This document shows, one piece after another, positions 1-35,800 of a stretch of DNA of 64,000 nt; position 1 is the first letter of the stretch; every line of letters starts with the position of its first letter. The stretch lies in contig JAJNDK010000008.1 in the NCBI GenBank assembly GCA_021156365.1, forward strand, positions 1 to 64,000, read 5' to 3'. The position numbers and the translations under genes were made by a program. A model generated the notes under the pieces. The model ran no database searches and was not told where the DNA came from. It was given only the letters and a program-made list of their open reading frames with translations. Source of the stretch: Bacteroidota bacterium (GTDB taxonomy: Bacteria; Bacteroidota; Bacteroidia; B-17B0; Aurantibacillaceae).

Positions 1-3000
1 CTGGAGCCACATTATCATCATGCTCCTGTCCATTGAATCCAAACCTGTAATCACCGCTGATTCCACGTTGTGGCAATTGACTTCCGAATGAATAGTAATC
101 TGTAGATGAAAGCACATCCGCTTTGTAGAAAGAAACTACCGTTGGCGTAATTGTGGAAGCCACCGGTGTTTTAAGATCCGAAACCACTGTTAGCACATTG
201 CCCAGGTGATTAGAAAACTCGTATGATTTTTCACCAAGAGTACGCAGATATTCGGTACCAGCTGTGACGATACTTCCACCCATATCTATTCCTAAAGCAG
301 GCGTATTGGCCCCAGGTCTCTTCATTCCCAAACGACTGCTACCATATAGGTGTTGCTCAGTAAGATACAAATTGGAAGGATTAGGCTGCAAAGCACGATC
401 AGTTGGATTGATAGTATATACCGCCATTGCATTACCCTGAGCATCCCGCACATAATAAGTGCTTGTTTTCAGAGCGCCGGTAGCCACATCCCTGGTGTGT
501 TTGGCGATGCGTTGACCCGATGCATTGTAGTCAAATACCAGGTCATCTTTGTCTGAAGTACCAGGGGTACGGGTAATGGATTTAATTTTTCCATATGCTG
601 TCCATTCGACATGATCGATTTTTTCGTTCTTATCTTTTATGAGATTTCCAATCTCATCGTACTGATAATTGTTCAAATTATGGTTACCTGCGTCGAAATC
701 CTGGTCATCGATATCCGTAGTATTAACTCCACTTCCAACAGCATCATCAACTCCTCCTAATTTATTGGCGTCTTTTGAATAGCCATTGGCTACCGTCTCA
801 TAATTGTAGGTCAGGTTATCCATCGCAGTACCTGTATGGTCTTTCCGAAGCAAGGTCTGGATATTACCATTAGCGTCATAGGAAAATTCTTCGTGGTAGG
901 CATTATCCAAGGTTGCTGTTGACCAGCTATTGCCCGCAAAACCACTGTATTTATTCGTCGTTTTGATCCGGTTCAGCTGATCATAGCCATACAAACTCAT
1001 TAATGGAAGTGCATTTCCGCTGACATCTGTAATAGTAGTGGCCATATTACTGATGTTACCATTAAAGAGGTTTATATTGGCTGCATTAACCGTTCCTGCA
1101 GTGCTTGCAATAAAGCTGGAAGGCGTAAGGGTATTAGAGGCCGCTTTAGGTATATAATCCCCATTGTAATAACCAAGGGTATACCCAAACTTATCGATCG
1201 CGAGATTCTTATTCAGGTTCGTTGAAATACTGAACTGACCATCCGTTCCGATATCATTATCTGCTTCGAGACTATTAGAATTTACACCTTTCATCCATCC
1301 CTGGATCGTGTAGGCAAAATCCACTCCCTGCACTTTTTGGTCACCAATCTCCATTCTTGCCATAGGTCCATGCTTGTAATAAAAATATTTGGCATCCTGG
1401 TCCCACATCACCCCATCGGAAGATGTATAGGCACTAGTGAGTCGATTATCAGCATCATACTCATATTTATGATGGAATTCGTCCTTATAGCCTTTCTGGT
1501 ATACAACTTCGTTCGTTTTTCCGGAGATCAGGTCATAATTATACTCCAGGAATTTGAACTCATTGTCTCCCTGCATATACGGATTGTGCTGCACCAATTT
1601 TTTCACATTCCCGTGAATATCGTAATCAAAGTAAGAAGCGTGTTCATAATCTGTTGTAAAGCCGGTCCTGTCAAGATTATCATAGAAGACACTGTACGAC
1701 ACTCGGTTTCGCAGATTAAAGCCATTTTGAGTAAAGCCAGGAATGGTAAGCGATGTGGCCTCATCATAAAAGGTACGTGTAACTTCCGTTTTATTGCTGG
1801 TTCCGGCTCCGAGCCATGCTCCAAAATTGGCTATATTGATCTGCCCGTTTGCAAGTCCTGGTATCAGTTCGATGGAAGCCGAAGCCAGGTATTCACCCAC
1901 TTCCCTGATCCTGCCCAATGCGTCAAAGATCGTATAGCTATAGGTAAGCGGATTTTTAGCAAACTGTTTGGAGTTCTGCGAAGCCACAAGCCGGCCCAGC
2001 TGATCGTAATACATACGGGTAGAAAATTCATTTTTCATATCCGCTACTGAAGCAGAAGCTCCTGCATTACCTGCCACCACATAGGTAGAGGAAGTTCCCG
2101 ATGGTGCAGCCGCAATGGTATTGATACTGCCTGTAGGAATAGTAGAATAGGTTTCAACAGTCCAGCTGGCGCCGCCATTGATCGTTTTCATTACGAGACC
2201 ATTATCACCCGTTACATATCCGGTAGCATAATCCACGAAGTAAACTGCATGCTGATCTTCTGTTGACCAGTTGATCACTCCATTGGTAGAAGCTGTCCAG
2301 TCAGGTTGGAATTTTGAACCGCTACTGAACCCTCTTTCAGCTGTCAGGATAAGCCCCCCATCACCAACTACACAAGCAAAATGCCCGTTTTTATTACTCA
2401 CTGAATTCAGGGAAACTGCGGGACCCGGGTGTGTATACTGAGTTGACCAGGATGTAACATTATCCGTCTCAAATATTTTACCCATATTGTTCACCGCGAC
2501 AAAATACCCATTCGAAGCCTCAATGTCATTCAGATTTCCGCTCAGGCTGGTACCCGTGAGCGCCGATGCGGTATAGCCGCCGCTAAAAACGATCTCCACC
2601 AGCGCATAATTGTCACCTACTGCATATGCATGTGTTGCATCCGATGCAGTAACTGCATTCAGATTATCTGTAACACCCGGAGCGCTTCCAACATTCAGAT
2701 ATAAGCTCTGCCAGGAAACACCTGCATTGGATGTCACAAGAATATTCCCTGCATTACCAACTGCTACCGCATGGCTGGCATCGAGGTAAGTGATATCATT
2801 TAATACCGGCGGAACGAATGAATTTTGAGCTGTAAGTGCATTTACTGCTCCATAGTAAATAGTCCCCACACTTCCGACCACTAACAAATTTCCGCCATTC
2901 ATATCCATGCCCAGGAGATTCCCCGTACCTGGCGTGTAAGTAGCAGCCGTACCGGAAGTAAGACCAACTGTGGCAACCGTATAATTGTCTCCCATCAGAT

Positions 3001-6000
3001 AAGCATTCGTTGCATCTGTGTATACTTTCCTGATGTTTTGTGTGGCAGGATTGGCAACAAGGCTTACACTTACAGGGCTTATTGTGCCGTATAACACATC
3101 GTTGAATGCTCCGGTAGCAGCTGAATAATCACCTGCCGCCGCCAGGTATATTCCATTGTTGGCAATATCATTCAGGTTGGTATTGGTATTGGTAGCCTGC
3201 GCCTGCCACGCGGTTCCGCCGGTTGTTTTGATCAATGTACCGTCTCTGCCAGCTGCAATGGCCGATGTAGCGCCAAGGGTACTCACACTGCTGAGAGCGG
3301 GAAGATCGATCGTTACCGAGGAAACCAGCGAATTGAACCCTGTAGACGTTCCACTGAAAGGATAAATATGCCCTCCTGATCCCACCACTACGGTTTGATT
3401 ATTGGAGGCAATAGTAAAGGCGCTTAAACCGCTTGCTCCTGAAATAATAGTACTGCCTGTAAAGCCTGAAGATGTACCACTCACAACAGTGCCTGTTGCG
3501 TCAATCGCGTAAATAGACGTAGGCGCAGGCGCAGAAGAAGGATATATATGCGTATAATTATCGGACGGAGAGCCCAATAAAACAGGGGCAGAAACCGGTC
3601 CGGGATTCTCAATATAATAAACATTCTGGAGAGATGAATTAGCTGTTCGTATAAACCCCTCCGCAAAGGAGGAGAAATAGATCTCATCAATACTGCTTCC
3701 ATTGAGAGGATTGACTGTATAAGTTGGACTTGTATATGCAGGTGCTGCTGAAGTTACAGATAAAGTAGTTGTTATGGTATACAGATCGCCTGTACTTGTA
3801 CCAATATATCCATCGGAAGTAGAGGTCATGAACAGGGATTTTGCATTAGCAACGGGGCTTGATAACACAGAAGTCCATGATGTACCGGTAGTTGTATAAA
3901 ACAGATTCCCGTCGGAAGCCAGGGCATACACTCTACCCGAAGTTGCCTGGAGCTGAACTACCGTAACAGTACCTGAAACAGCGGTACTAAGCCATGTTTG
4001 TGCAGCGTCGGTAGTTCTATATACTTTACCGGTTACATCCAGTGCATAGGCATCGCTGGCAGATGTGAAAACCACCTGGCTAAATGTCGTATTAGTTGTT
4101 GCTGCAGTAACGCGGCTTTCTATTTCTTCCCAATCCGAAAGACCGGAAGCGCTTTTTAACACAGTACCATCAAGTCCGAATGCGTAAAAATCGGTTCCGT
4201 TAGATGCAACCGCTGTGAGATCAACGGTATTGAATGTAGTTCCGGTTACTAAAGTCCATACAGCTGTTGGGCCGTCATAAGCATCAACCGTATAGAACCT
4301 GTTATCACTTGTTACCGCCCAGCCATAGCCCGAGGTTTTATCCACATCGATGTCCATAATTATTTCACTTCCGCCAAGTGTAATGCCACTACTGGTTGAT
4401 GACCAGGACGTTCCTGATGACGAAGATTTGTATTGGCTACCTTTATTATCATATACATATACATTTGTTCCTGTATTATCCTTGTGCAATCGTATCAGGT
4501 TTTTGTTCACATTAGGGAACGGCAACAAATTCCAGCTGCTTCCGGTGTTGGATGTATATAATACCGTACCGTGATCGCCGACCGCGTATGCAGTTGTAGG
4601 ATCTATAAACAGCACATCATTCAGATTGTATACGGATAAACCGGTGATCAGCGACCAGGAATTGGTAAGGTGATCAAACGTATAAATATATCCGTTGGTT
4701 CCGTCATTGGCAACAGCAAGTCCGGTATTCCCGTTGAAACTGATCGATTGTACATGATGCGACGGATTGATCCCTGTTAAAGATGTGGAACCCGAAATAT
4801 TCATATCCTGATGATCCGGCATGCTTTGGGATACCAATTGATTGAGAGAATTGTACTTATAGGTGGTAGCGTATGAATGATTGGTGAATACCGATCGCAT
4901 TCCGCTTTCCCTGTCGATTGCGACCTGATCGAGTGTATCGGGATCGGTGATCAAAACAACTCCATTCGGAGGCACTGTTCTTTCCAGGTTCCCTGCCTGA
5001 TCATAATAATATAAGGTATAATGATGCTCGGTATCCTTGTATTTCATTTCAAGCTCTTCGTATACATCAAGGCAATGGCGTTTATATGCTTCAATGAATT
5101 TACCACGCTGCTCCGCAATGTATTCATCGTATTCATTCTGTGCGCCTTCTACAGCATTGTTGATCGCCGATTCAATACAATCGTCATTAATAAGTATATC
5201 TTCTGAAGGTGGTGGCAGCGTACACATGTAAGAACCAGGAGTTCCGCAATAAGTCATTGAAATATCATCTATCGCGAACTTGGCGCTGGTAGAGCCGTCT
5301 ACCAACATTTTCACCGTAACTGTATGTGTTCCCACTGTTGTAAGCGAAAGATCAGAGGCATTGATAATGTGCATGAATGGCCTCCACATATTGGTAACCG
5401 CAGCTATGCCAGGATACATACAACCGGATGGAGTAGCTGAAGGAAGACAAGCCGGAATATTCAGCCGTACGCCATCCACATAAAGCTCAAAAGAAACATC
5501 AATAGCGCTTACCGACACATACTGCAGGAAGAATTTATAGTCGGTGGATGGATACAATAAAACTTCCTGTTCCCAAACGGTACTCGTATTGTCCGATGAA
5601 TTAGGTACTAATACAAGGTAACGGCCCGTTGTACAATCTGTATCAATGTCGTCACCGCAGGTAGTGTGATCGGAAAGACTTGCGGTTGTTCCAACAACTA
5701 CTGATGAATAGGTAGATGTAAACTCTTCAAACCCTAAAGAAAAATCACCATTTATAATAACTTCCACAGGTGTACATTCGGTATGACTTCCGCAACCCAG
5801 GAACTCTTCGCAGGGAGCATTACCATTTACTGACATGTGTGTTCCGTCGTCCATGATAACATCCATGATAAAATGCGTGGTAACGCCTCCCGGTACAAGG
5901 TAAGCCGGATCAGCATAAAACTCCACGATATCCGCTATTTGTGTGGTGGAGGTAAATCCGAAAGGATTTGGTGGAAACGTTATATCCATCGTACATGCAT

Positions 6001-9000
6001 TCGGACCGGGAGTTACTATCACATAATGACCTGCAGTAAACGTATACGTTAAAGATGTCATCAAATCCTCGAGATCAGTACCTGTTGCATCTTTTAAGAA
6101 GCCAGGAAAGCCGGGGCCGGCTTTGGGCAGTTCCGGGCACATCAGGTCAACAGTCGTAGAGCCGCCAAAAGCTGTACCCAGGATATTTATTTCCGTTGAA
6201 CAGGATCCCATATCCAGGCAAGGCATATTACCGGTTACTTTTTCGTACTTCGTAGGGGAAACACCAACAAGAGCAAGCGCTTCAAAATCTCCGGGCGCCC
6301 CACCCGATACCGGTTTTACATTAAAGAGTTTCCGGATATCCGTTACAGCTACAGTAGGACTTGTGGAAGTAGTTGCCATAGTAAGCGTGCAGGTATACGT
6401 TCCACCGGTAATAGTTCCAATATAGGTAGTACCTGTGGCCGAAACCTGGTCCCAGGTAAAGCTTGTCAGTGAAGGAGTTGTAACTCCACCTAACTGTGTA
6501 ACTAAATTTTCATTGTTACTTAAGAAGTCTGAATAGGGAAGATTGTTCAGGCTCACTCCTGTTTGAAAAAAGTCAACCGGAGGAGGTGACATCCCCGGCT
6601 CTTTAAATAGCAGGGCATTTAATAAATCCTGAAAACCATTACCAACAGCAGAAGTATTACAAACCGGCTCAAAGGTACAATCACCAAGGTTGAGGCCTGT
6701 AATATCGCCCACCAACTCAATATTCCTGTACTGGTTAAATTGCGCATTGTACAAAGGATCCGGAGCTTTCACCAATACGGTTGCCAGACATTTGAAATTT
6801 CCCGGTCCGCCGCCCATTACACTTGATGGCTGATAGGTCAGACAGCAAATATCTGTTACATCAGAAAAAGTATAGGGATGTACAAAAGGAGCCGCGTTTA
6901 CCTGCGATGGCAAAGCTCCTATCTGATCGACTATTTTATACGGGAAAATAAGCCGGAGAATTTTTGGCGAGCTTGACGCGCCGTCAATTGTTCCTCTCAG
7001 GTAGCTCCTTGGATTGCCTCCAACAGTATAGGTAGTAACAGTCGCGTCATAATTCCAGTTTACTATTTCAGTCGCTCCAAAAAGAAAATCGTGATGGAGG
7101 TCAGGTATGAATTCGCTGTGGAGCGATGTAGGATAGCAGGTCAATAAAACCGGTCCGGAAGTTTCCATGAGGTCCTTTGCAGCCGGAGTACCGACAGGAT
7201 CACTGTCAATCTGAGTCAGGCCTTTCAATAAGGCTTCGAATCTTGTCGCTTTCGGACATTGCTTGCAGGCCTGATAATTGGTGAGCTCCGCTTCATTCTG
7301 CATGGCAGCTATCGCAGCATCGTCAATAGGCGGGCATTCAATCGGGTTGCCTGCATCGTCATAACAGGTCTGGTAAGTAGTATTACCGGAAGAAGCCATC
7401 GAAAGCAAGTGGCTGGTAGTAGGAAACCGAGGCTTTTTTTGTTTGTATAAATCCCTATCCCACCTGTTGCATGGCTGTTCTGTGTTATAATATTCGGAAG
7501 TATTGGTAGTGCCCCAGATCCAGGCTGTATATGCCCATATGGAAGACCATGGATTCGGGGCAGGCGTAACTTCATGAACATAAAAACCATAATCAAAGGG
7601 ATTGAAGTTTGTTTTCCCGATACAGCCGTTGTAACAACCATTATCAATCGCATACTTCATGTTTTCCCGATCCTGGAACGATTGTTTTAAGCTCATGTAC
7701 AAAGGCTGGAAGATATCCCAATCTGCCTGCGTACTTAAGCTCATGGTACCACTTGGAAGTACACATGCCCCACAATTCATCAGTGAGCTTCCGATAGTAG
7801 GACAATGCTGCATCACCCATACTGCCTCCCATATGGTGTAATACTGAACCGGAAAAGTGCCTGGGATCTTCATATAGTCGATCATCGCCTGTTGGATATC
7901 CGCTAACATATAATTTCCATTGCCTAACGGTGTTCCAGGTGCAAAATAAGGATCCGCTACTATTGTAACACTGCTGCCCGGCATATTGGCAACCGGGTTA
8001 AACAATTCTGTTGCAGGATCGCCTGAATAGTGGGGAATATTATGAACGTCTGTAAGTGTAGCAGGAAGGCTCATTTCCGAATCGTAATTATTACTCGCTT
8101 CGTCCGCCAAACAACGCTCATACAGACAATACTCCGGATGTATATACACCAGCGACTGCGCCCAGGATGGTTTCCAGCGGTTCTTAAAGTCTTCGGAATA
8201 CCGGAGGTATCTCGGTTCAACGGATTTGGATCCATCGGCATTGGTTACTATTTTGGAAAGGTTATCAAGATCTACCGAAGGGTTATAAAAACCACCGCCA
8301 AGATCCTGCAGCGCGATCATATCTACATTTCCATCTTCATCAAGATAGGCAAACTGAGCTGCGCCTGTAGCGGTGGAATTATATGGATTTCTCCAGCTTG
8401 GATACCAGATACTGCCCGTCCCGGAAGTATACTGGAAAGCATTAGTACTACTACCCGTTCCAAATATGCCCACATATACAGACCTGCGTGGAAGCTCGTT
8501 CCATTCACGCAACAATGATAAAGGAAAAGTCCATGGCGTATAGGTTGAGCCCTGTGCAACGGGGATCCCATTGCTGTTTGTTCCGCCACCTGTTGTATAC
8601 TGGCAATATTGCCCACCCGGGCTAACATCGGCAAGCATGCTTTGGTATGCCGATTCGCATTTAATGGATTTATAACTGCAAAGCGCGTTACATTGTTCAA
8701 CCAGCGCATCATACTGTTCCACGGTAAGACAGTTGGTACAACCCGGCGCCGTATAAGTCGAAACAGGTCCCAGCTGAGCCAGACACTCCGTGCAGGTAAT
8801 ATTACAACCACTAAAATCCGCCTCGCCCAATGACTGGGAGTAAAAATCTTCCAGTGTAAGCAAACAATTGTCTGTACGGGCTAAATAATCATTTGCATAT
8901 TGATTCAACACATCCGTATTCAGGTTCAAACTTTTCGTAAGTGTATAAGATCCGGGAGCCAGGTTAACCGGGTCGGTGGTTGTAGGATTTTCAATATTAA

Positions 9001-11080: not shown

Positions 11081-11107
11081 AATCAGATCCGTTTAAATAT
11101 TTTATTA

Positions 11108-11812
11108 TCAATATGCGTATAATGTGTATTTTGAAAATTCGGGTTTCAATTCATATGATTTTCCTTTCTTTACCAGGAAACGTTCATAATTAATATCTTT
11201 TTCTTGTATGTTAGGTGAGGCGTTGAATTTTGAGTACACAACTTCAATACGTGGCCTGGTCTTTTTTTCTTTATCATCATCCGAAATATCCATTTCATCG
11301 AAGGAAAAAATCATGCGTTTAACAAGGAACGTGTTCTTATCGAACTGAAGCTCAAGTTTTGCATAGTCCCAGCCTTTCTTCATAAGAAAAATATAACTGT
11401 ATAAAGTCCCGCTTAGTTTTTTAAACTCCACTTTATCGTAGAATTTAGAAAGGGAATCGATATTCACTCCAAGAGCGGGTGTGGATGTAACCATCGTCTT
11501 TTTCGGAAGCAGTGTGATCGTTTTACTGTCATTCTCCACACGCACCGAATAATCGAGTGTATTGATCGTTTCCGTATCTCCCTGTTTTATATAGTTGATA
11601 GTGTTGTATTTTTTTATTTGCCCCTTTATTATTGAATACGGAACAGCTGCTGCCTGATCTTCAAAATACAGGTACTCACAGTCCATGCTATACTTTTTCG
11701 CATTAGCATAGGCTGCATTTATTTTATCCATGTCTGCTTTGAGACTTTGTGCATGATGTGTCGCAAAACAAAGGCAAAACAGCAGAATGAGTATTTGATT
11801 GATTCTATACAT
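11108..11812 (-). CDS. Secreted LolA-like hypothetical protein
   Basis: 234 residues with a clear signal peptide (residues 1-21, cleavage after the ATHHAQS region). The mature part (EYLYFED..., then alternating hydrophobic strands ending LELQFDKNTFLVKRMIFSF) resembles the one-sided beta-sheet of LolA-like outer-membrane lipoprotein carriers, but no diagnostic motif is seen and this is only a resemblance. Its ATG overlaps the TAA of the upstream beta-helix gene (TAATG), so the two are probably translationally coupled. It sits just before the giant RHS gene, which may fit a periplasmic helper for that product. Function not established. Confidence 0.7.
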   Translation of the reverse strand: MYRINQILILLFCLCFATHHAQSLKADMDKINAAYANAKKYSMDCEYLYFEDQAAAVPYSIIKGQIKKYNTINYIKQGDTETINTLDYSVRVENDSKTITLLPKKTMVTSTPALGVNIDSLSKFYDKVEFKKLSGTLYSYIFLMKKGWDYAKLELQFDKNTFLVKRMIFSFDEMDISDDDKEKKTRPRIEVVYSKFNASPNIQEKDINYERFLVKKGKSYELKPEFSKYTLYAY

Positions 11813-14517: not shown

Positions 14518-14519
14518 AA

Positions 14520-14975
14520 TCAAAATTTAAAATGTTCTTTTTTAGTCAACTTTCCCTGCGCGTCTTTGGCATAAATAGTCAGCCATTTTATACCCGTCAG
14601 GTTTTTCGGTAGTTTAAACAGGTAATACCCACTGGTATTCCATATTTTGAAATTTTCTCCGGCCCCTTGCAAAAACACTTCATCACCCCTTTGTATTTTG
14701 CTTAGTTCTCTTGTCAGAATGCTCCCATTATCAACTGTTGTTCCAACCTGGATATAGATCTTTGCTAATTTTGGAACATCGCTGATCTTAAACACCAGGC
14801 GGAAAGGCATAGAATCAGGTAAAGCAGCCGGAGCCGAATTCGGCATGGTAGTTACCGGTCTGAATTCATTGTTCACAACGATATTGTATAGCCTCAATGT
14901 ATCGGTTTGTGCCCCTGAATAGGTATAGCAGCTGAGGCATAGTGCCAATAAAATAAAGTGCTTGATTTTTTTCAT
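14520..14975 (-). CDS. Small secreted hypothetical protein
   Basis: 151 residues. The ATG at 14975 is chosen because it begins MKKIKHFILLALCLSCYTYSG, a normal signal peptide; the frame is open further upstream but that extension would overlap the end of the preceding gene. The mature part is beta-rich (FRLVFKISDVPKLAKIYIQV...) and ends KWLTIYAKDAQGKLTKKEHF, which looks like a single Ig-like or adapter domain. I do not recognise a family. It lies 52 bp after the 1937-residue shell protein and abuts the beta-helix gene, so it is part of the giant-protein operon. Confidence 0.75.
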   Translation of the reverse strand: MKKIKHFILLALCLSCYTYSGAQTDTLRLYNIVVNNEFRPVTTMPNSAPAALPDSMPFRLVFKISDVPKLAKIYIQVGTTVDNGSILTRELSKIQRGDEVFLQGAGENFKIWNTSGYYLFKLPKNLTGIKWLTIYAKDAQGKLTKKEHFKF

Positions 14976-15027
14976 ATTTTCCGGTAATAATTCCTGTCTT
15001 TTTTTAGTGCTTGTCTTTGACCATGTT

Positions 15028-21513: not shown

Positions 21514-22031
21514 CAAAGTCCTTTGTATTTAGTGTTTATATACGTTATCATATCTTTTGTCACATTGATCTCTTCTTCTGCATACATAACCGCCCCTTCT
21601 CCGTTGGCTCCCAGTATAACCGAATACTTTTTTTCAATTCCGTATTCTTTTGCATACTGGTTTATCTGGTTCACGATCTGTTCATAATAATTCGCCTGCA
21701 TGTTCTCACTATCTTCCTCCAGTTCCTGCTTCTTATTTAAGAAATAAGACCTTTTGGTTTCGAACAAAATGTTCTTTTCCTTATTTTCGGGACTGATCTG
21801 CAACTGATTAAAAATCAGCTTCAGATCCAGCTCAAGACTGTCTATTATTTTTTTTCGTGCCGATTCCGCCTTCATGAATTTGGCATCCAGTTCTTTTTTG
21901 CCGTCAAACTCATTATACACTTTATTCACTTCCACCCAGGCTATTTTATTGCTGTCATTTCTTAAAAGAAAATAAAGCCCAAGCGCCAAAACAACCACTG
22001 CCCCTATTCCTATACTATATACTTTTTTCAT
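21513..22031 (-). CDS. OmpH/Skp-family periplasmic chaperone
   Basis: 172 residues: an N-terminal membrane segment or uncleaved signal (residues 4-23), then IAWVEVNKVYNEFDGKKELD, a long helical/coiled-coil middle (about 50-125), and YGIEKKYSVILGANGEGAVM...INVTKDMITYINTKY. This is the normal layout of OmpH/Skp proteins, whose helical tentacles hold unfolded outer-membrane proteins in the periplasm. Its ATG overlaps the stop of the giant adhesin gene (TAATG) and its stop overlaps the next start. A Skp homologue placed inside an operon of giant secreted proteins, rather than in a bamA-lpxD setting, suggests a chaperone dedicated to this cargo (inference). Confidence 0.85.
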   Translation of the reverse strand: MKKVYSIGIGAVVVLALGLYFLLRNDSNKIAWVEVNKVYNEFDGKKELDAKFMKAESARKKIIDSLELDLKLIFNQLQISPENKEKNILFETKRSYFLNKKQELEEDSENMQANYYEQIVNQINQYAKEYGIEKKYSVILGANGEGAVMYAEEEINVTKDMITYINTKYKGL

Positions 22032-25000
22032 TATTGCTGATATCTGAATTTTAATACTAATGATTCCTTCTTCTCACTTTTAACTTCCAAAACAAAGAAC
22101 TTTCCTACATCACCACTGCCAAAGCCACAATCCGTATCAAGGTCCAATACATACCTGTTATCGCCATATACTTTTGTCATTGGAACAGTAAGTTCTGTAG
22201 CTCTTACATCACGCTGGCTGTCAATAATTGAATACGTAATGTTGCCGGAAATATACTCTTCGTTAAAAATGAACCGTAATTTGTCGTCCACTACCTGGTA
22301 AAAAGAACCGTCTACTGCTTTTTTTAATACTCCATACGAATATGCAGGATCGGTAATAGAGATCATGACCGCGTCGTCCAGCTCACATCCTAATACATCC
22401 GTAACAGTAACCGTATAAGTAGTAGTAACAGCCGGAGTAACCGTAACGGTTTGCACCGATCCTGAAGGAACCATAGTTGTGGTTGGTGTCCACGAATAAG
22501 TAAGCGGCGTTTCGCTGGAAGTAGTATTGGCATTCAGTGTAGCTGAATTGCCCCCAATAATTGTTTGATCAGAACCGGCATCCAGTGTTGTGTTACTGTA
22601 GTTTACAAACACATTATCAGAAGACGAACATCCGGTAGCAGTATAGGTAATAGTGACAGAATAGGTAATATCGCTGGTTACGGTTACACTCGGGCTCGGC
22701 ACCGTAGTACTGCTAAGTCCTGTGCCGGGGCTCCATGAAAACGAATAAGTACTTGTATTCGTAGGAGTAGCGGCTAAGATTCCGGATGCAGACGGACAGA
22801 TCATGATATCACTCCCTGCATTCGTAGCCGGTAAAGGATTTATAGTCAAGGTATGAGATGCGGTAGAGAAACAACCCGTCATAGGAAGATATTCAACCTC
22901 GGCGGTATAGGTGTATGATATCGGGCTGCTTCCTGCATTAACGGGGGTAACTGAATAGGTGTCACCACTCACAGAAGTAGGCGCCGTCCAGCCGTACACA
23001 TAACTTCCACTACCTGGTGTAACCGAAGCCGTCAGGTTTACCGTACCTGCACCCGAACATACACTTGTGGAGCCACTGATAGAAAGTGGTGAGGTAGTTT
23101 GTTTTACATAACAGGCATTCTGTCCTAAGGTAAAATGCCCGAAGGAGCCCAACGCAGAGGATGAGCTGATTGTTGTTCCCGCGAGCGAGTTACCAACACC
23201 GGTCCACTGGGAACCGTTCCACCAAGCAAGCCTCATTTCCGAAGGCACAGCTGCAATCATACAACTTCCCGAATTCCAGGTAGCGCCTACTGTTACAGAG
23301 GATGACCCTGCATCTCTTGTAAGGCTCCAGTACTCACAATTGCTCAGGTTAGCAATAGTCGTTGCATCAAGTGTCGAACCGTCTGTTTGGCCTGTTGCAT
23401 AGTATCTTGCCGTATAAGCATCCGTTGCCACAGCAGGGGCCGAAATAGTCAGCGGATGATATGCACCACTGCTCAATGCATCATCCCCGATAGGGAACAC
23501 AAATGCATCATCTCCTGTTTTTTGAACATCGGCATGAATATAACTCAGGTCTGATGCTCCCGTAGCAGTTGCATTATCCGTAAATGAAACTGTGGAAGTA
23601 TTGGTGGTTTTTAAGATCCCCTGATCAAAACTAAGTACCCCAGAAACAATAAGGGGATAGGAGAACTCTACAGGATCAGAAGCCACTGGACGAGCCAGCG
23701 TAAGGTTGTAAAACGTTTCCGTGCCGGCAGTAGAGGGGCCACTGATCGATTGAACTCCGGCAGCTGCCTGAAATTTCACTGTTCCGTTGCTGCAGGCAAA
23801 CGTTCCTGTATTTGTCCAGTCTCCGTATACCTTGAGCATGGAAGACGTGCCCGCAGTAAAGGTCGCCCCGGAACCGATAGTTAACGCTGTCAAGGTCATA
23901 GCAGCAGGAGAAGTGAATGTTCCCGAGCTTAAGGTAAAATTATTCGTGGTTAAATCCGTGATACCTGACAAGGCAAGCGCTGAACCAGTGCTTCGGGTTA
24001 CATCGTTAAAAGTAGTATTGGAAGCGCTTGTAATGGTCTGCGTTCCCGAACCTGTAAAATTCAGCACATTGCTTCCTGAGCCACAGGTAAATGTGCCACT
24101 GTTATTCCAGTCACCCGTTACATTTATTGCGGAGGAAGTACCGGCTGTGAATGTTGCCCCCGAACCGATAGTCAGAGTAGCTATGTTCATCGTAGCAGGG
24201 GAAGTGAACGTCCCGGAGCTTAAGGTAAAATCTTTTGAGGTCAACGTGGTAATGCCAGACAGGGCAAGGGATGAACCTGTTGAGCGTGTCACATTGTTAA
24301 AAGTTGTAGTAGAGCCACTTGTAATGGTCTGTGCACCTGAGCCGGTAAAGTTCACCACATTACTCCCTGAGCCACAGGTAAACGTTCCGCTGTTATTCCA
24401 ATTACCGGTAACATTGATAGCAGAAGAACTGCCCGCTGTATATGTTGCTCCCGAACCAATGGTCAGAATAGCGATGTTCATTGTTGCAGGAGAAGTAAAT
24501 GTTCCCGAGCTCAGCGTAAAATCTTTTGTGGTCAGCGTGGTAATACCAGACAAGGCAAGTGATGATCCCGTGCTGCGTGTCACATTGTTAAAGGTAGTTG
24601 TAGCGCCACTTGTAATAGTTTGTGTACCAGAACCTGTAAAGTTCACTACGTTGGTTCCTGAGCCACAGGTAAATGTTCCGCTATTTGTAAAGTCTCCCGT
24701 TACATTTATTACGGAAGAAGATCCTGCTGTATAAGTCGTTCCCGAACCGATCGTCAGAGTTGCTATGTTCATCGTTGCAGGAGAAGTGAATGTCCCCGAG
24801 TTCAACGTAAAATCTTTTGTGGTTAGTGTGGTGATACCGGATAAGGTAAGCGCTGAACCCGTTGAGCGGGTAACATTACTGAATGTCGTCGTTGAGCCGC
24901 TGGTAATGAGTTGTGTTCCTGATCCCGTAAAATTTACTACGTTGGAACCAGTACCACAGGTAAATGTTCCGCTATTCGTAAAGTTCCCCGTAACATTCAT

Positions 25001-28426: not shown

Positions 28427-29083
28427 ATGGAAACAAAAACGACCATAATGATTGCCGAAGATCATAAGCTGATACTCGGTGGCCTGATCAGGATCCTGAA
28501 CGAACGGGAAGATTTTGAAGTGATAGGTGAAGCCGTCAACGGCAGAGAACTGTTAGAGCTCTTAAAGACAAAACAACCGCACATCATCCTGCTTGATCTT
28601 GAAATGCCAGTGATGTCGGGCGGTGAAGCATATGAAGAAATCAAGATCCTGTACCCGGAAATTAAAACGATTATCATCAGCACGCATTATACAGACAGTT
28701 ATATTTCCGAATATTTTTTAAAAGGTGTAAACGGATACCTGCCAAAGAACAGCGATCCGGAGCAATTGTGCGAAGCCATTGATGCGGTTATTGCAGATCA
28801 ATACTACTTTAACCAGGGCGTATCCAAACTGCTCCTGTCAAAAATGATAGAAGACTACAAACAGAAAAAAAACACGCAAAAAACAGAGCTGACTGAAACC
28901 GAGCTCTCGATCCTAAAAATGCTGTGTGAGGAAAAAACCTCAAAAAAAATTGCGGAAGAGCTGAACCTCACTCCTTATGTAGTAGATCACCAAAGACGAA
29001 GCATCCAATCAAAAACACAACAAAATACAACCGTCGGCCTTGTTAAATTTGCCATAAAGAACGGGATCATCCGTATTGATTAA
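28427..29083 (+). CDS. NarL/FixJ-type response regulator
   Basis: 218 residues: a receiver domain (about 5-125) with acidic pocket E11/D12, phospho-acceptor D57 in IILLDLEMP, switch S85/T86 and K107 in GYLPKNS, then a LuxR-type helix-turn-helix (about 150-212; TELTETELSILKMLCEEKTS, KKIAEELNL). The recognition-helix region (TPYVVDHQRRSIQSKT) departs somewhat from the usual TV..H...I..KL pattern. It is therefore a phosphorylation-controlled transcription factor. No partner kinase is adjacent. It is the first plus-strand gene next to the secretion-like set, 68 bp before the ATPase, and faces the giant-protein operon across a shared control region, so it may regulate both. Confidence 0.93.
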   Translation: METKTTIMIAEDHKLILGGLIRILNEREDFEVIGEAVNGRELLELLKTKQPHIILLDLEMPVMSGGEAYEEIKILYPEIKTIIISTHYTDSYISEYFLKGVNGYLPKNSDPEQLCEAIDAVIADQYYFNQGVSKLLLSKMIEDYKQKKNTQKTELTETELSILKMLCEEKTSKKIAEELNLTPYVVDHQRRSIQSKTQQNTTVGLVKFAIKNGIIRID

Positions 29084-29151: not shown

Positions 29152-30594
29152 TTGTCTTCCCTGGAAACAACGGATCACATACCACTCAGCCTCGAACAAC
29201 AGCAACTGGTCAACAGTGACCAGGCCTGGTATTTTGGTATCATTCCAAAAGCTGCTACAAAAAGCAGCATCGAATTTTATATCGATCCGGATAAACTGCG
29301 GAGCGATCTGCCGGATGAGTTAGAAGTACTTTTTGGCAAAACGGTTATGCTCGAAAAAAGCGATCCGACACTGATCAAAAAAACACTGGCCAAGTATTAC
29401 CGGAAAAATGAAGGAACCAGTACCAACCGGAAAAACATCAATGTAAAGTCGGATGAGTTTTTACATTCGCTCGTATCCGAAGCACGGGAGCTTGGCAGTA
29501 GTGATATACATATCGAAATATACGATGACAAATGCCGGATCCGTTTCCGTATCGATGGTATGCTTATCGAACGGCATGCCCTGAGCAAATCCGAATATCC
29601 TACTGCAGTAAATAAGATAAAGATCTCGGCCAACTGCGAGATCTCCGAAAAACGATTGCCGCAGGACGGAAGGATACAGCTGTTCTGGAACGGGAACAAG
29701 ATCGATATCCGCGTTTCCATACTTCCAACGCTGCATGGCGAAAAGATCGTACTGCGTTTATTGAGCAATGATGCCGCCAATATCGATATCCGGAAATTAG
29801 GTTTCTCGGATCTTCAACTGGAACATTATCTCGAAGGTGTAAAAAAACCGCATGGTATTGTGCTCATCAGCGGGCCAACCGGTTCGGGTAAAACAACTAC
29901 GCTATATGCTACCCTGAAGCTCCTGAATAAAACAACGAATAATATCCTCACGATAGAAGATCCGGTGGAGTATACACTCGAGGGAATTAACCAGGTACAG
30001 CTAAAAGAGGATATTGGTCTGAGCTTTGCCGCTGCTCTCCGTACTTTCCTGCGCCAGGATCCGGATGTGATCATGCTCGGGGAGATCCGTGATGGAGAAA
30101 CAGCACAAATGGCGATCCGCGCTTCCCTTACAGGGCATTTGGTATTATCTACCATTCACACCAATTCGGCCTGGGGAACTATTGCCCGTTTGGCCGATAT
30201 GGGAGTTCCGCCTTTCCTGATCGCCAGCACCCTCAACCTGAGTGTGGCCCAGCGTCTCGTACGTTTGTTGTGCACGATCTGCAAGGAAGCAAAGCCTTTT
30301 GAGTCCCTGTACCTGCCGAATACCTATATAGCTCCTAAAAAACTGGACACCCTCTATCACGCAACAGGCTGCGAACACTGCCATTATACAGGCTATAAAG
30401 GCAGAAAAGCACTTTACGAGGTCATTCCGGTAGATATGCATTTGGCAGAATCTATAAAAAACAATACTTTTACTATTTCCGGGTATTTAAAATCAAGGAA
30501 TATCAGCTCTCTGTCTGATAATGCTTTTGAGCTTCTTTCCTCGGGGGTGACTTCTGCTGAAGAAGTGTATACGTTGCTTGTAAATGAATACTAA
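29152..30594 (+). CDS. GspE/PilB-type secretion or pilus assembly ATPase
   Basis: 480 residues from a TTG at 29152 (no upstream ATG fits, and the next ATG is about 65 codons in, inside the N-terminal domain). An N-terminal domain (about 10-95) precedes the T2SE core: SDIHIE with the N2 domain, Walker A GPTGSGKTTT (241-250), Asp box ILTIEDPVEY (265-274), Walker B VIMLGEIRD (306-314), a His box near 329-337, and the tetracysteine metal site C374xxC377...C407xxC410 typical of GspE/PilB. Such ATPases are cytoplasmic hexamers that power pilus or pseudopilus assembly through an inner-membrane platform. Next in line is the secretin, 9 bp on. Whether it belongs to a T2SS or a type IV pilus cannot be told from this protein. 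Confidence 0.93.
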   Translation: MSSLETTDHIPLSLEQQQLVNSDQAWYFGIIPKAATKSSIEFYIDPDKLRSDLPDELEVLFGKTVMLEKSDPTLIKKTLAKYYRKNEGTSTNRKNINVKSDEFLHSLVSEARELGSSDIHIEIYDDKCRIRFRIDGMLIERHALSKSEYPTAVNKIKISANCEISEKRLPQDGRIQLFWNGNKIDIRVSILPTLHGEKIVLRLLSNDAANIDIRKLGFSDLQLEHYLEGVKKPHGIVLISGPTGSGKTTTLYATLKLLNKTTNNILTIEDPVEYTLEGINQVQLKEDIGLSFAAALRTFLRQDPDVIMLGEIRDGETAQMAIRASLTGHLVLSTIHTNSAWGTIARLADMGVPPFLIASTLNLSVAQRLVRLLCTICKEAKPFESLYLPNTYIAPKKLDTLYHATGCEHCHYTGYKGRKALYEVIPVDMHLAESIKNNTFTISGYLKSRNISSLSDNAFELLSSGVTSAEEVYTLLVNEY

Positions 30595-30603
30595 ACTATA
30601 ACA

Positions 30604-32511
30604 ATGAAACTGTTTTTTTTACTCACCCTTAGCATCTGCCTGTCAGCAACAGCCCTGGCACAGGATCGCTTTACCATACTGGAAGAGAAGCTCAATCAGG
30701 CAAAGGTTACCATGCCCGGTCTCGACGAAAAAGTACAGATAGCCGTAAACAGCATGACCATCCAGGATTTTGTGCAGGGCATCGCACTCAATCACAACCT
30801 GAATGTGACCGTAGATCCGAATGTGGATGTGAAAGTCACCAACACCTTTAAAGATATTACAGCCGAAGATATTTTCCTTTACCTCTGCAAACGTTACGAC
30901 CTGGACATCACGTTTATCGGGCCTATCATGAACTTTTCGAAATATGTGGCACCTCCCCAGGTGATCCAGCCGAAAATTGTAACAAGAAAGATCAAGGTGT
31001 CATATGATTCCACTGCCAACCTGTTGAGCTTCGACCTGAACAATGACAGCCTGGAACTGGTTACCCGCGAAATTACCCGCGTATCCGGAAAGAACATCGT
31101 GTATGCACCCGACCTCGGAAATAAAGTACTGAACGGTTTTGTGCAGAATGTTCCTTTCAACAGCGCCATGGATAAATTAGCATTTTCCAATGAGCTGAAA
31201 GTGACGCTTACTGCCGACAACTTTTACATGCTCGAAAAAAACGCAAAAGAAAAAGATCCGAAAAACACGAACAGCAATAATTCCAGCGGCAACTTTGCCA
31301 ACGCTAACAGCCCGAAACAGATAAACGGTCTTAATTATAAAGTGGAGAACGGCGCCATCACACTGGATGCAATGAATGTACCGATCGGTGATATCGTGAA
31401 TGCTATTTCTGCGCTGATGGGATATAATTATTTCCTCTTCAATGAACTGAAAGGAAATGCAACGGTTAGCATAAAAGATGCAAGCTTCGAAGATTTTCTG
31501 AATCATCTCTTCAACGGTACAGATTACACCTTTAAAAAAGACGCGAACATATATTTGTTTGGCGACCGTAACCTCGAAGGCCTTCGTGTAAGCAAGCTGG
31601 TGACACTAAAGAACAGGACCGTGGAGAAGATCATGGATTTCATTCCGGCAGATCTGAAAAAAGGTGTTGACCTGAAAATATTCGAGGACCTGAACGGTAT
31701 TATCCTGAGCGGATCGCAGCCACGTATCAATGAGATAGAAGCATTCCTGCGTCAGGTAGACCTTGTGGTACCGAACGTATACATTGAAGTGATCATTGTG
31801 GATGTGAGAAAAAGTAACACTTTTTCTGCCGGTGTGGCAGCGGGATTGGGAACCGCTCCTACAACAACAAGTGGTACTGTGATCCCTTTTGATTTCACCT
31901 TAGGCGCTCAGTCCATCAACAACCTTATTACGGGCATCAACGGCATTGCATCGGTGAATTTAGGGCAGGTAACTCCTAATTTTTATATCAAGCTCAAAGC
32001 GCTGGAAGAACAGGGCGTGCTTAAGCTGCGCTCTACTCCGCAACTGGCTACACTGAACGGACACAAGGCAGAATTGAGTATAGGACAGACTGAATATTAC
32101 CTGGAAGTCTCCAACAACCTTGTTCAGAATGTGAACCAATCCAACATCCTTCAAAGCCAGCAATACAAGCCGGTGAATGCAGATCTTTCGGTGAGCATCC
32201 TTCCGCAGATCTCTTCCGATGAACAGATCACGATGGACATCCATGTAAAACAATCCAGCTTCACGGAGCGTATTTCCAACACAGCGCCTCCGGGCACTAT
32301 CAACCGTGATTTCAAATCACTGATCCGGGTGAAGAACGGCGAGATGATCATGTTAGGTGGCCTGGAAGAAAATACAAAAAGCGAATCCGGCTCAGGTCTG
32401 CCGGGTATTTCAAGAATACCGATCCTGAAATGGCTGTTTGGGAGCCGGATCAAAAAGAAATCACAAAACAAACTGACGATCTTCATTAAGCCGGTTATTA
32501 TATACAGTTAA
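30604..32511 (+). CDS. Secretin (GspD/PilQ family)
   Basis: 635 residues: signal peptide (1-19, ATALAQ), an STN/N0-like domain (about 38-105, MTIQDFVQGIALNHNLNVTV), N-type domains and a low-complexity Asn/Ser linker (about 220-235). The secretin core (about 395-635) shows VPNVYIEVIIVDVRKS, LRSTPQLATLNGHKAELSIG, GEMIMLGGLEENTKSES, GLPGISRIPILKWLFGS and an ITIFIKP-like end. Secretins form the gated outer-membrane ring through which T2SS substrates or type IV pili pass. The single STN-like N-terminus is closer to PilQ or compact secretins than to classical GspD with its N0-N3 series. It lies inside the secretion-like operon between the ATPase and the GspL/PilM-N-like gene. Confidence 0.93.
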   Translation: MKLFFLLTLSICLSATALAQDRFTILEEKLNQAKVTMPGLDEKVQIAVNSMTIQDFVQGIALNHNLNVTVDPNVDVKVTNTFKDITAEDIFLYLCKRYDLDITFIGPIMNFSKYVAPPQVIQPKIVTRKIKVSYDSTANLLSFDLNNDSLELVTREITRVSGKNIVYAPDLGNKVLNGFVQNVPFNSAMDKLAFSNELKVTLTADNFYMLEKNAKEKDPKNTNSNNSSGNFANANSPKQINGLNYKVENGAITLDAMNVPIGDIVNAISALMGYNYFLFNELKGNATVSIKDASFEDFLNHLFNGTDYTFKKDANIYLFGDRNLEGLRVSKLVTLKNRTVEKIMDFIPADLKKGVDLKIFEDLNGIILSGSQPRINEIEAFLRQVDLVVPNVYIEVIIVDVRKSNTFSAGVAAGLGTAPTTTSGTVIPFDFTLGAQSINNLITGINGIASVNLGQVTPNFYIKLKALEEQGVLKLRSTPQLATLNGHKAELSIGQTEYYLEVSNNLVQNVNQSNILQSQQYKPVNADLSVSILPQISSDEQITMDIHVKQSSFTERISNTAPPGTINRDFKSLIRVKNGEMIMLGGLEENTKSESGSGLPGISRIPILKWLFGSRIKKKSQNKLTIFIKPVIIYS

Positions 32512-32513
32512 AA

Positions 32514-33764
32514 ATGAGTGCGGGAAGCTTTATTAAGGAAAGCATTTTTAAGACTAAAACAGTAGCCGGAGTAGAGATCATAGCGCGGCCCGATTCCACA
32601 TTTGTATACCACATCCAGGTGCTTGTGAAAAAAGGAAAAGGCCTGGTCCCTGCAGAGAGCTTTACGAACATACGTGATAAATCCGTATTCCTTAAAACAG
32701 TAAAAGAGCTCAAATGCCCGGTGGTGATCAATTACCAGGGAAAAGGGATCATCCATCGCGCTTTCCAGGATTCGGTAAAACAGAATTTCACGGAAGCGCT
32801 GAACCGCGTGGTTCCTTCAGGAAATGAAAATGAATTCCATATTCAGCTATACAACGGAGCGGCAGGCAATTCGTTTGTAAGCATTCTGCGTAAGCATCAG
32901 TTAGACGAGTTACTAAAAGAATTTATAGAGAACAAGATCGACGTGATAGGACTGTTACTGGGCAGCTATCACCTGGAGCTTATTTTGCCGCTTACCGAAC
33001 AGGGCGGTTCTATGAACAAGCTCCGGCTTCCAGCGCAGGAACTGATATTTGAAGATGGCAGTCTGCGTGAAATGAAAAACATGGAAACGGATCCCGCTAA
33101 CGATCGGGAGAGAATTGAATTCCTGACGATCGATAACAAAGAGATCTCTTCCCTGCTCTACCCTGCCCTCGCTGCTGCTATGATCTATTTTATTCCGCTC
33201 GGCAGGATCATCCACAATAACAAAGACATTCATTTCCTCGAAAAGGAATTTTCCAATAAGAAAGCTTTTGTAACACTTTCACGTACGCTTATTGCTTTTC
33301 TGTTAGTGCTTACGCTGGGTAATTTTTTCCTGTTCAACGGCTATTATAAAGAACAGGCAGACCTCGAAGGCCAGCTGGCCGTATACGAAAATTCCATCAA
33401 TGCATTCGATGCGCTGAACACGCAGCTGAAGAACAAGGAAGAATTTATTGAAGCATCCGGCCTGCAGAACGGTTCACGTATCTCCTATTACACCGACCGG
33501 ATTTTATACGATATGCCGCAGGAGCTGCAGCTTAGTTATTTTTCGGCCGCACCTATGGTGAAAAAAGCGGAGAAGGATTCGGTGATCCGTTTCGATCCGA
33601 AGAAAGTATTGATAAAAGGAAGCTGCCTGAAAAGCATTGCACTGAATGAATGGCTGAAGCTTTTGAAAACAAAGGATTTTGTAGCCGATGCTGTGCTGGA
33701 AAATTACAACCAGGAGTCGGACCACCAGGCAGGAAAGTTTGACGTAGCCGTAACATTAAAATAG
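32514..33764 (+). CDS. GspL / PilM-PilN-like inner-membrane assembly protein
   Basis: 416 residues: a cytoplasmic region (1-255) of alternating strands and helices that could be a degenerate actin-like fold (PilM/GspL type), one membrane helix (about 258-276, TLIAFLLVLTLGNFFLF), then a periplasmic coiled-coil and ferredoxin-like part with SYFSAAP and VLIKGSCLKSIALNEWLKLL, as in PilN/GspL. No ATP-binding motif of PilM is obvious. In T2SS and T4P this protein links the ATPase to the periplasmic alignment complex. The start is 2 bp after the secretin stop and the stop abuts the next gene. Assignment rests on topology and operon order more than on sequence motifs. Confidence 0.75.
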   Translation: MSAGSFIKESIFKTKTVAGVEIIARPDSTFVYHIQVLVKKGKGLVPAESFTNIRDKSVFLKTVKELKCPVVINYQGKGIIHRAFQDSVKQNFTEALNRVVPSGNENEFHIQLYNGAAGNSFVSILRKHQLDELLKEFIENKIDVIGLLLGSYHLELILPLTEQGGSMNKLRLPAQELIFEDGSLREMKNMETDPANDRERIEFLTIDNKEISSLLYPALAAAMIYFIPLGRIIHNNKDIHFLEKEFSNKKAFVTLSRTLIAFLLVLTLGNFFLFNGYYKEQADLEGQLAVYENSINAFDALNTQLKNKEEFIEASGLQNGSRISYYTDRILYDMPQELQLSYFSAAPMVKKAEKDSVIRFDPKKVLIKGSCLKSIALNEWLKLLKTKDFVADAVLENYNQESDHQAGKFDVAVTLK

Positions 33765-34313
33765 ATGCTGAAAGGAATGACATACCAACGCAAGTTAAGA
33801 TTGCTACTACCGGTAGCCATCGCTGCTTTGTTGTTTGTGTATCTGTTTGGGCTCAAGAAAACATTTGCCACCCGCAGCGATATCCGGGACAAAAAAGAAA
33901 AGCTGGCTCTTTCAAAAGATGTGAATGCCAAAATGAGCCTCGTGAAAGCAAAGCTCAACAGCATCGATAACATGATCGGTCAAAAACCCGATAGCAGTAA
34001 AAAAGTGATCGATATTATCCTTGAAGATGTAACTACCTATTGCAATAATGAAGGCTGCACTTTAAAAGAGATCCCGGAAATGCATCATGCCGAAGACAAA
34101 AACTTCCGCATTGAGACCTATTTTATTACCGTGGAGGGCGATTACAGGAAATTGCTTAACTTAGTGTATCTGCTGGAACAAAAGAAAAAAAGCGGAGGCC
34201 GGCTGAGTTCCTGCACACTGTATACCCGGAAAAACAACCAGACAAAAAAATTAAGCCTCGAAAGCACTTTGTATATTCAACAATACGATAAAAAAAATGA
34301 AGCAGGTAAATAA
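33765..34313 (+). CDS. GspM / PilO-like alignment protein
   Basis: 182 residues: short cytoplasmic tail, one membrane helix (about 11-30, LLLPVAIAALLFVYLFGL), a coiled coil (about 35-75) and a ferredoxin-like periplasmic domain (about 85-180, with FRIETYFITVEGDYRKLLNL and VYLLEQ). This is the PilO/GspM layout; the VEGDYRKLLNLVYLLE segment closely follows the PilO pattern of a short strand followed by a helix. It starts immediately after the previous stop and overlaps the next gene by 17 bp. Expected to pair with the preceding PilN/GspL-like protein. Confidence 0.75.
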   Translation: MLKGMTYQRKLRLLLPVAIAALLFVYLFGLKKTFATRSDIRDKKEKLALSKDVNAKMSLVKAKLNSIDNMIGQKPDSSKKVIDIILEDVTTYCNNEGCTLKEIPEMHHAEDKNFRIETYFITVEGDYRKLLNLVYLLEQKKKSGGRLSSCTLYTRKNNQTKKLSLESTLYIQQYDKKNEAGK

Positions 34314-35250
34314 ACTACTGATGATCCTTACGCTTGCTGTGATCTTTGCATCCTGCGAGAAAGACATCATCGTGAAAGACATCACCGGCAAGACCATAAC
34401 AGTGCTGGCCCCGGGAGACGGTGTAAGCACGCCTATCAACACTATTACTTTTTGGTGGGAACGAGTGGACGGAGCGGAAAAATACAACCTGCAGATCGTA
34501 TCCCCTTCTTTCACCAGCATTACACAGCTGATCGCCGACACGAATGTAACCGGTGATAAATTCGTACAAACACTTCAGCCCGGAACGTATCAATGGAGAA
34601 TACGCGCCACGAACAATGGAGGCAGCACCCCCTGGGTAACGCGTACACTCACCATCGATACCACCAGCAACCTGTCTTTTCTGACAGTTGCACTCAACTC
34701 ACCGGCCGATTCGTTCTATACGAATGTATTATCACAAACCTTCTCCTGGTCGCCAATCAGTGCAGCTACAGCGTACCGGATACAAATAACCGGAACGACA
34801 TTTGATAATTTGCAAACCGGTACATCTGCTGCATATACCTTCCCTAGCACGAATGCAACGTACACCTGGATGGTAAGAGCTGAAAACAACACCGGCTTTA
34901 CTCAATTTTCCTCGCGGAAGATCTTCATTGATGTTACTGCTCCCGGTTTACCGACACTCTATTCTCCTGCCAATACTTTTACTTCTACAGTTACACTCGG
35001 AAGCGATTCAATTAAATGGATTCGCGGCTCCGGAGGATATTACGACAGCCTATACGTAAGTACCGATTCTATGTTTATTAATCCATTCGTACTTCAAAGA
35101 ATTACAGCTACGACCACACCGGTGGGATATGCGATCACATTAAACAATGGGTTTTCAACGGCCCAGCGTTACTACTGGAAAGTAAAAAGTATAGATAAGG
35201 CAGGCAATCAATCGGCATTTACCTCTCGCTTCCAGTTTAAAACGAACTAA
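34297..35250 (+). CDS. Lipoprotein with FN3-like repeats in the secretion-like operon
   Basis: 317 residues: lipobox LAVIFASC (Cys about 20), then about three FN3-like domains of 85-95 residues (ITFWWERVDGAEKYNLQI; QTFSWSPISAATAYRIQITG; SIKWIRGSGGYYDSLYVSTD), each ending in the YxWxVRA type of strand (YQWRIRATNNGG, YTWMVRAENNTG, YYWKVKSIDKAG). It overlaps the GspM-like gene by 17 bp and is followed 1 bp later by the GspC/PilP-like gene, so it is almost certainly co-expressed with the apparatus. No classical T2SS or T4P component has this architecture; a pilotin-like or outer-membrane accessory role is possible but unproven. Confidence 0.82.
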   Translation: MKQVNKLLMILTLAVIFASCEKDIIVKDITGKTITVLAPGDGVSTPINTITFWWERVDGAEKYNLQIVSPSFTSITQLIADTNVTGDKFVQTLQPGTYQWRIRATNNGGSTPWVTRTLTIDTTSNLSFLTVALNSPADSFYTNVLSQTFSWSPISAATAYRIQITGTTFDNLQTGTSAAYTFPSTNATYTWMVRAENNTGFTQFSSRKIFIDVTAPGLPTLYSPANTFTSTVTLGSDSIKWIRGSGGYYDSLYVSTDSMFINPFVLQRITATTTPVGYAITLNNGFSTAQRYYWKVKSIDKAGNQSAFTSRFQFKTN

Positions 35251-35251
35251 A

Positions 35252-35800
35252 GTGCTAAAGAATAAAAAAACGGCATATATTCTTTTACCTGTAACGCTCA
35301 TCATTTGGGTGTTGATCGGTTATAAGATCTATCAGTTCCTGAATACGGAAGACGAAGACCTCGTATTGGATACCACTATGGTAGCGCCATCCAAAGATAA
35401 GCTGGCTGGAGATTCCTTTATCGTATTCAATAATTACCGCGATCCGTTTTTAGGGAACGACGGAAAAGAGCTTGCCGGGATGGGAAAACCAAAGAACAAC
35501 TACTCTTCCAATTCCAACACCAACTATTCTTCTTCGACTGTACGGCACAACATGAATCCGAAAACACCGAAGAACCCGGTGATCACGCCTGTTGTCGGAG
35601 ATGGCTGGCCAAAGATCGTTTACCATGGTATGATCACCAATTCGTCCAAACAACAATCGATGGGCTTCGTATCGATAGATGGAACTTCCAACCGGGTGAA
35701 ACCGGGCGATAAAATAGGAGGCGATCTGAAAGTAATCGATTTTAATCCGAATGAGATCACCATCGCCAAAGGGAAAGAGAAAAAGACATTCGGGAAATAA
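35252..35800 (+). CDS. GspC / PilP-like protein
   Basis: 182 residues from a GTG at 35252, 1 bp after the preceding stop. There is one N-terminal membrane helix (about 8-27, ILLPVTLIIWVLIGYKIYQF), a short NNYRDPFLG motif like the RDPF of PilP/GspC proteins, a low-complexity Asn/Ser/Thr linker (about 75-105), and a small beta domain (about 115-180; KIVYHGMITNSSKQQSMGFV, then VKPGDKIGGDLKVIDFNPNE) resembling the PilP/GspC homology region. That domain normally contacts the secretin, closing the gap between inner and outer membrane. It is the last gene of the operon; a convergent sirtuin gene ends 36 bp beyond. Confidence 0.75.
   Translation: MLKNKKTAYILLPVTLIIWVLIGYKIYQFLNTEDEDLVLDTTMVAPSKDKLAGDSFIVFNNYRDPFLGNDGKELAGMGKPKNNYSSNSNTNYSSSTVRHNMNPKTPKNPVITPVVGDGWPKIVYHGMITNSSKQQSMGFVSIDGTSNRVKPGDKIGGDLKVIDFNPNEITIAKGKEKKTFGK

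Follow-up and report, generated by a model that had tools for sequence, protein, structure and literature searches.

Genetic linkage of a type II secretion-like machine and giant RHS genes in Bacteroidota

The DNA analysed here, referred to as the window, is a stretch of 64,000 nucleotides from a Bacteroidota bacterium of the family Aurantibacillaceae (assembly GCA_021156365.1), whose base 1 is also base 1 of the 354,822-bp contig JAJNDK010000008.1. Within its first 35,800 bases an operon of giant secreted proteins, among them an RHS protein and a 1937-aa protein that we call SHELL, faces the core genes of a machine resembling the type II secretion system (T2SS). Comparison with other Bacteroidota genomes supports the view that these two gene sets belong together genetically, and their repeated adjacency suggests that the machine exports RHS proteins to act on other cells. 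We favour the reading, with a probability of about 0.6 and on the strength of sequence comparisons, that it exports polymorphic toxins of the RHS type, put together as a shell of several parts. The machine itself is known and the new element is its tie to the giant RHS and SHELL genes; a literature search, made without most subscription papers, found no paper describing this tie.

Linkage of the machine and the giant genes

The samples were 40 relatives, a one-genome-per-species set (80 kept out of 265 relatives, with 79 usable loci) and 21 named isolates of Pedobacter, Mucilaginibacter and Hymenobacter that were picked via their secretin and not via RHS. In 11 of 16 relatives SHELL and the secretin are no more than 30 kb apart, against 0.72 expected under uniform placement, and an RHS core lies within 25 kb of the secretin in 17 of the 21 named isolates (1.56 expected). 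Together these isolates have 40 RHS cores at that distance versus 1.64 expected, i.e., a ca. 24-fold enrichment. The first-pass annotation of this DNA, made from its letters alone, had proposed to look for co-occurrence of the two sets in Bacteroidota genomes, and in both samples they are usually found together and not apart. At least 47 of the 79 species loci, some of which are truncated, have a SHELL or RHS open reading frame (ORF) no more than 10 kb from the secretin, and in 39 of these 47 linked loci (83%) it lies on the secretin's strand (p=2.8e-6), the linked loci being spread over all main clades of the secretin tree. These p-values ignore the kinship of the species and so overstate independence.

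Presence and absence point in the same direction. Among 41 relatives, the shell protein was present in 16 of the 17 machine-positive genomes and in two of the 24 machine-negative ones. A sample of 238 genomes from the whole phylum gave a modest association (five with both, 18 with the machine only and nine with the shell only; p=0.006), and genomes with the close secretin type had the shell in 5/5 cases versus 9/233 of the others, a split that was chosen after seeing the data.

The arrangement of the two sets is more fluid than their linkage. Among relatives the giant operon is found upstream or downstream of the machine genes, divergent from them or enclosed by them; it follows GspF on the same strand in genome G021, and in Pedobacter (loci L116, L130 and L140) a SHELL-RHS pair directly follows GspM inside the machine operon. 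RHS genes lie within that operon in P. kyungheensis and P. montanisoli, for example. The divergent pairing emphasized in the first-pass annotation is therefore conserved as a linkage and not as a layout, since order and orientation vary. This variation, the multi-copy nature of RHS operons and a transposase-like gene found between the two gene sets in G002, a genome of the same genus as ours, would all be compatible with an accident in which recombination brings repetitive RHS islands into the machine locus or its vicinity with no functional dependence. Against such an accident stand the enrichment, the co-orientation, the tree-wide spread and the correlation of presence and absence, and we consider it very improbable.

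Some loci of Pedobacter show further peculiarities. P. planticolens (G289, locus L132) has two copies of the secretin (C2:251839 and C1:181796), each with an RHS core within ca. 10 kb. In some other members of the genus (L113, L111, L114, L135 and L137) arrays of secreted proteins of 260-410 aa are scattered through the T2SS-like operon, even between core genes, and end in a common tail, VNGKIRAKEIKVE..GEMNKxLLKKIEELTL. The idea that the tail-fibre-like arrays typified by L113 generally accompany the machine was considered and rejected, as the motif was present in just 5 of 80 loci.

Layout of the locus and identity of the machine's parts

Eight tightly packed minus-strand ORFs occupy positions 1-28042 (span 2-28042) and face seven plus-strand ORFs at 28427-35800 (Table 1), as had been described at first pass and as the ORF list and translations bear out gene for gene. 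The divergent sets are 384 bp apart if the 2003-aa ORF is read at its full length, and the 447 bp originally given holds if this ORF begins at its second ATG (27979).

Table 1. Features of the divergent locus, with their positions in the window
Position	Strand	Length (aa)	Feature
1..11080	-	3693+	Giant RHS protein: signal peptide, DUF6443, YCF48/BNR propeller insert, YD repeats, RHS core start
11108..11812	-	234	S14, secreted protein; usual place directly before RHS
11812..14523	-	903	Beta-helix/PKD protein; C-terminal ~150 aa correspond to the shell protein C-terminal end of relatives
14520..15053	-	177	S12, small secreted protein
15028..20841	-	1937	SHELL, secreted protein
20848..21516	-	222	LP10, lipoprotein of an unnamed family; directly before SHELL
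21513..22031	-	172	Skp/OmpH-like chaperone (PF03938), N-terminal hydrophobic segment
22031..28042	-	2003	Variable first gene of the operon, repetitive surface-type protein
22040..22339	-	~100	Conserved C-terminal domain of the first-gene product
28427..29083	+	218	LuxR-type response regulator (PF00072/GerE)
29152..30594	+	480	GspE/PilB-type assembly ATPase (PF00437)
30604..32511	+	635	Secretin GspD/PilQ (PF00263 + STN)
32514..33764	+	416	Predicted GspL: actin-like cytoplasmic domain, transmembrane helix, ferredoxin-like periplasmic domain, in one chain
33765..34313	+	182	GspM/PilO-like
34297..35250	+	317	Fn3-like lipoprotein, conserved in this gene set
35252..35800	+	182	GspC/PilP-like

Pfam searches confirmed the response regulator, the ATPase (T2SSE, 1.9e-128), the secretin and the Skp-type chaperone that had been proposed at first pass; the ATPase and the secretin were named by NCBIfam as well. 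The remaining assignments of that annotation, to GspL-, GspM- and GspC-like proteins, are of unequal quality. An AlphaFold (AF2) model of the 416-aa protein, built from 40 relatives (pLDDT 88.8), matches cytoplasmic domains of the PilM/GspL type over residues 12-240 (Z 11-14) and the periplasmic domain of XcpY/PulL over residues 320-416 (Z 10.8; XcpY at 1.9 A over 78 residues). Since the model matches both kinds of domain, the protein is, as judged by its predicted fold, a GspL in a single chain. The first 182-aa protein has a profile match to PilO (E=1.4e-4), while the top match of the last one, GspC, is weak (E=0.025), its place in the gene order being conserved in relatives.

The E-D-L-M-Fn3-C core recurs throughout Bacteroidota, both in the 40 relatives and in the one-genome-per-species set, and the clusters of relatives are complete, with GspF, major and minor pseudopilins, an A24-like peptidase and a MORN protein beside the core. 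The plus-strand set is the core of a T2SS-like type IV filament machine of the kind known from Cytophaga hutchinsonii (PMC5553014), so that the apparatus is not an unnamed one, contrary to the initial impression that no named system matched it. The response regulator goes with the giant operon: in G002 its relative (61% identity) sits at that operon and not at GspE.

In our genome, the assembly of which is 98.7% complete, no GspF was detected with Pfam or with a profile of its own relatives, and no major pseudopilin was found in the assembly by a search that had no positive control. A true loss of GspF in the genus was considered and rejected, because G002 has a complete machine, GspF included, that brackets the giant operon; the absence thus more likely reflects a local deletion or sequence that is missing where the contig ends. 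The order in G002 is GspF, minor pseudopilins and MORN protein (minus strand), pseudopilin and peptidase (plus), response regulator (minus), giant operon (plus) and GspE set (plus). The window looks like this same arrangement with the segment that runs from the response regulator to RHS inverted and, if this single comparison is a guide, the missing GspF and pseudopilin genes would lie just past the start of the contig.

Only one PF00437 gene of this genome scores above the cut-off, namely GspE. A second match falls below it, so that genome-wide there is no second PF00437 gene above the cut-off that could be a PilT retraction ATPase, as would suit a secretion machine better than a pilus that retracts. 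This bears on another view of the locus, in which the machine would be a short pilus or pseudopilus for contact, with the giant proteins displayed at its tip or delivered with its help, as in PilY1 or Kil, and not secreted through it. Tip display would explain the same linkage data and would suit a very large cargo; besides, the machine family branches with type IVa pili (T4aP) in a phylogenetic study (PMC6668835), and contact-dependent killing by Myxococcus needs a type IV filament machine (PMC8460266). With no second ATPase such as PilT, with a GspL that appears as a single fused chain, as in T2SS, and with no known tip adhesin domain found, we regard tip display as quite unlikely.

Just downstream, at 38207-40689, a TPR histidine kinase is followed by a LytTR response regulator, both close to the machine but separate from it.

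The giant proteins and their route of export

There are ca. nine SHELL operons in this genome, many of them ordered Skp, LP10, SHELL, S14 and RHS. In some relatives SHELL has YD/RHS repeats. According to the alignment, the C-terminal part of the shell belongs to the PKD protein in three genomes (ours, G002 and G031) and to SHELL itself in others; for G002 and G031 this shows as a separate match of shell profile positions 1575-1730 to the corresponding ORFs. In the window, the shell end fused to the PKD/beta-helix protein lies at 11812-12276, a gene fission relative to most relatives. A confident structure model of LP10 gave no clear fold match in PDB. We also considered SHELL as a Tc/SpvB protein and rejected it, with no sequence match in Pfam, NCBIfam or PDB; SpvB was undetected in SHELL (P0011) and in all 8 SHELL members, and for this reason membership in the Tc family is not claimed.

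The RHS gene of the window is cut before its C-terminal end because the window begins at base 1 of the contig, which stops inside the RHS core after the YD repeats. Its linked relatives show what such proteins look like when complete. They carry the RHS-associated core TIGR03696, followed by unrelated C-termini and then by small downstream genes, and some of the ends are of toxin type, namely a Tox-MPTase2 domain (PF15638, L102) and a Peptidase_M23 endopeptidase (PF01551, L112). The ORFs that come after RHS in relatives, where an immunity gene would be expected, encode small lipoproteins or secreted or cytosolic proteins. Around the Pedobacter machine, at L141 (4374-6319) and in the flanks of L130, there are pieces of RHS core with differing C-termini and small downstream genes, resembling orphan toxin cassettes. 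Rather than general adhesins, the giant proteins are best described as the shell of an RHS polymorphic toxin accompanied by a variable surface protein: of the giant RHS/adhesin operon initially described, the RHS part stands (DUF6443, YD repeats and propeller) and the general adhesin label does not.

On these grounds the giant operon probably encodes a cargo of the machine, as a multi-part shell formed by SHELL, the shell C-terminus borne by the PKD protein and the RHS protein, with the Skp-like chaperone and the lipoprotein helping and the variable surface protein going along. All the parts would leave the cytoplasm by Sec, as their signal peptides and lipoboxes, read from the sequence, indicate; they would then be chaperoned and assembled into the shell in the periplasm. 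By homology to related machines, a pseudopilus pushed by GspE may drive the passage of the shell through the secretin, or its display there, and the variable C-terminal toxin of RHS would be released at the neighbouring cell, as the ends found in relatives lead us to expect.

The variable products of the operon's first gene share a C-terminal domain of ca. 100 residues (consensus LKKxLDGGYY..EEY..YGDNRYSINL..YVLEVxNEKxEKxYLRFKK), which was recovered in leave-one-out searches with E-values of 1e-16 to 2e-30 (7e-19 for the protein of the window). Relatives and paralogues carry the domain on genes that immediately precede Skp; it also occurs after the machine in L067, the case of L096 being uncertain. 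It matches no Pfam or NCBIfam family above threshold and gave no hit among 643 other ORFs of this genome, covering 860 kb, in which the tail domain of the type IX secretion system (T9SS) gives 45 matches, counted with a one-round profile as the iterated search drifted into unrelated proteins. We propose it as a candidate sorting or anchoring domain.

The abundance of T9SS tails in this genome raises the question of whether the T9SS exports the giant proteins, as has been proposed for the TANFOR polymorphic toxins, the T2SS-like machine merely sharing an island of surface proteins with them. The occurrence of shell proteins without the machine and the faint likeness of the first-gene domain to Por_Secre_tail would fit this, and a case for the T9SS has been made for Bacteroidetes toxins of another class (PMC7073777). 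Yet no T9SS tail (PF18962, Por_Secre_tail) was matched in SHELL, in the PKD protein or in the 2003-aa protein (together P0008, P0011 and P0013; the RHS end is missing), whereas P0021 of the same window, the positive control, has one. Moreover, at the ends of RHS proteins from relatives there are toxin-type domains and not this tail, and neither co-orientation nor insertion within the T2SS-like operon would be expected from a mere island. Export by the T9SS thus seems unlikely to us. The window also contains, at 40938-45911, an SprB/SBBP/laminin-G protein that carries a T9SS tail of type A, after which five further giant ORFs of SBBP type (1055-2261 aa) come in a row beyond the window (L045-L046).

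Several observations weigh against export of an RHS shell by the machine. In this genome most of the SHELL operons are unlinked to the machine, GspF and pseudopilin are missing from the assembly and the toxin end of the window's RHS gene is beyond the contig. A shell protein without a detected machine was seen in eleven genomes (two relatives and nine of the phylum sample), so the tie is not obligatory, and the 18 secretin-positive genomes of the phylum sample mentioned above lack SHELL. The named isolates are mostly of one genus and hence not independent. Two of six members of the first-gene C-terminal domain weakly match the T9SS tail (best E=0.044), and a folded shell of several thousand residues may exceed the size of the secretin channel. 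It is with these points in mind that we hold to export by the machine at the probability given at the outset. A bolder version, in which the T4aP-derived machine would be a separate secretion type with giant multi-part RHS toxins, directed at neighbouring cells, as its main cargo and the first-gene C-terminal domain as its sorting signal, is one that we put forward tentatively, as a possibility that we doubt more than we believe.

Comparison with known systems

The cargo of the T2SS-like machine of Bacteroidota is not known, and PMC7073777 leaves open by which route the polymorphic toxins of this phylum exit when they have no T9SS tail. A genetic tie extending over the phylum makes both questions testable together by one deletion.

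The closest known system is the putative T2SS of C. hutchinsonii (CHU_3191-3202), with homologues in Pedobacter, Flavobacterium and Odoribacter (PMC5553014). As described in the available part of that paper, it comprises the same set (secretin, ATPase, GspL/M/C-like proteins, GspF, major and minor pseudopilins and A24 peptidase) in a gene order that, as here, is unlike that of Proteobacteria. It differs in having the GspF and pseudopilins that the assembly of the window is without, and in its association: this part of the paper ties it to cellulose use and to cellulose-bound outer-membrane proteins, with no RHS or shell cargo, whereas here a giant RHS operon adjoins. Denise et al. 2019 placed the Bacteroidota system with T4aP, perhaps as a secretion type that arose independently of the T2SS, and did not find it branching with the proteobacterial T2SS (PMC6668835); no cargo of RHS type is described in the available part of that study, and the linkage reported here supplies candidates.

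Regarding the giant proteins, the RHS polymorphic toxins of Zhang et al. 2012 (PMC3482391) share the RHS repeats and the signal peptide with the protein of the window, and the full core and the variable C-terminal toxin with its linked relatives (Tox-MPTase2 in L102). In Table 1 of that paper, toxins with a signal peptide are assigned to T2SS/Sec as a default export with no signature neighbours, whereas here a specific machine adjoins. The TcB-TcC pair of the Tc/SpvB family likewise pairs a large RHS gene with a large gene next to it, and differs in that neither SHELL nor its relatives have SpvB. Finally, the Kil (Tad-like) apparatus of Myxococcus (PMC8460266) is also a type IV filament machine that is directed at nearby cells; it belongs to another branch of the superfamily and is made of other genes, so that the likeness is one of role only.
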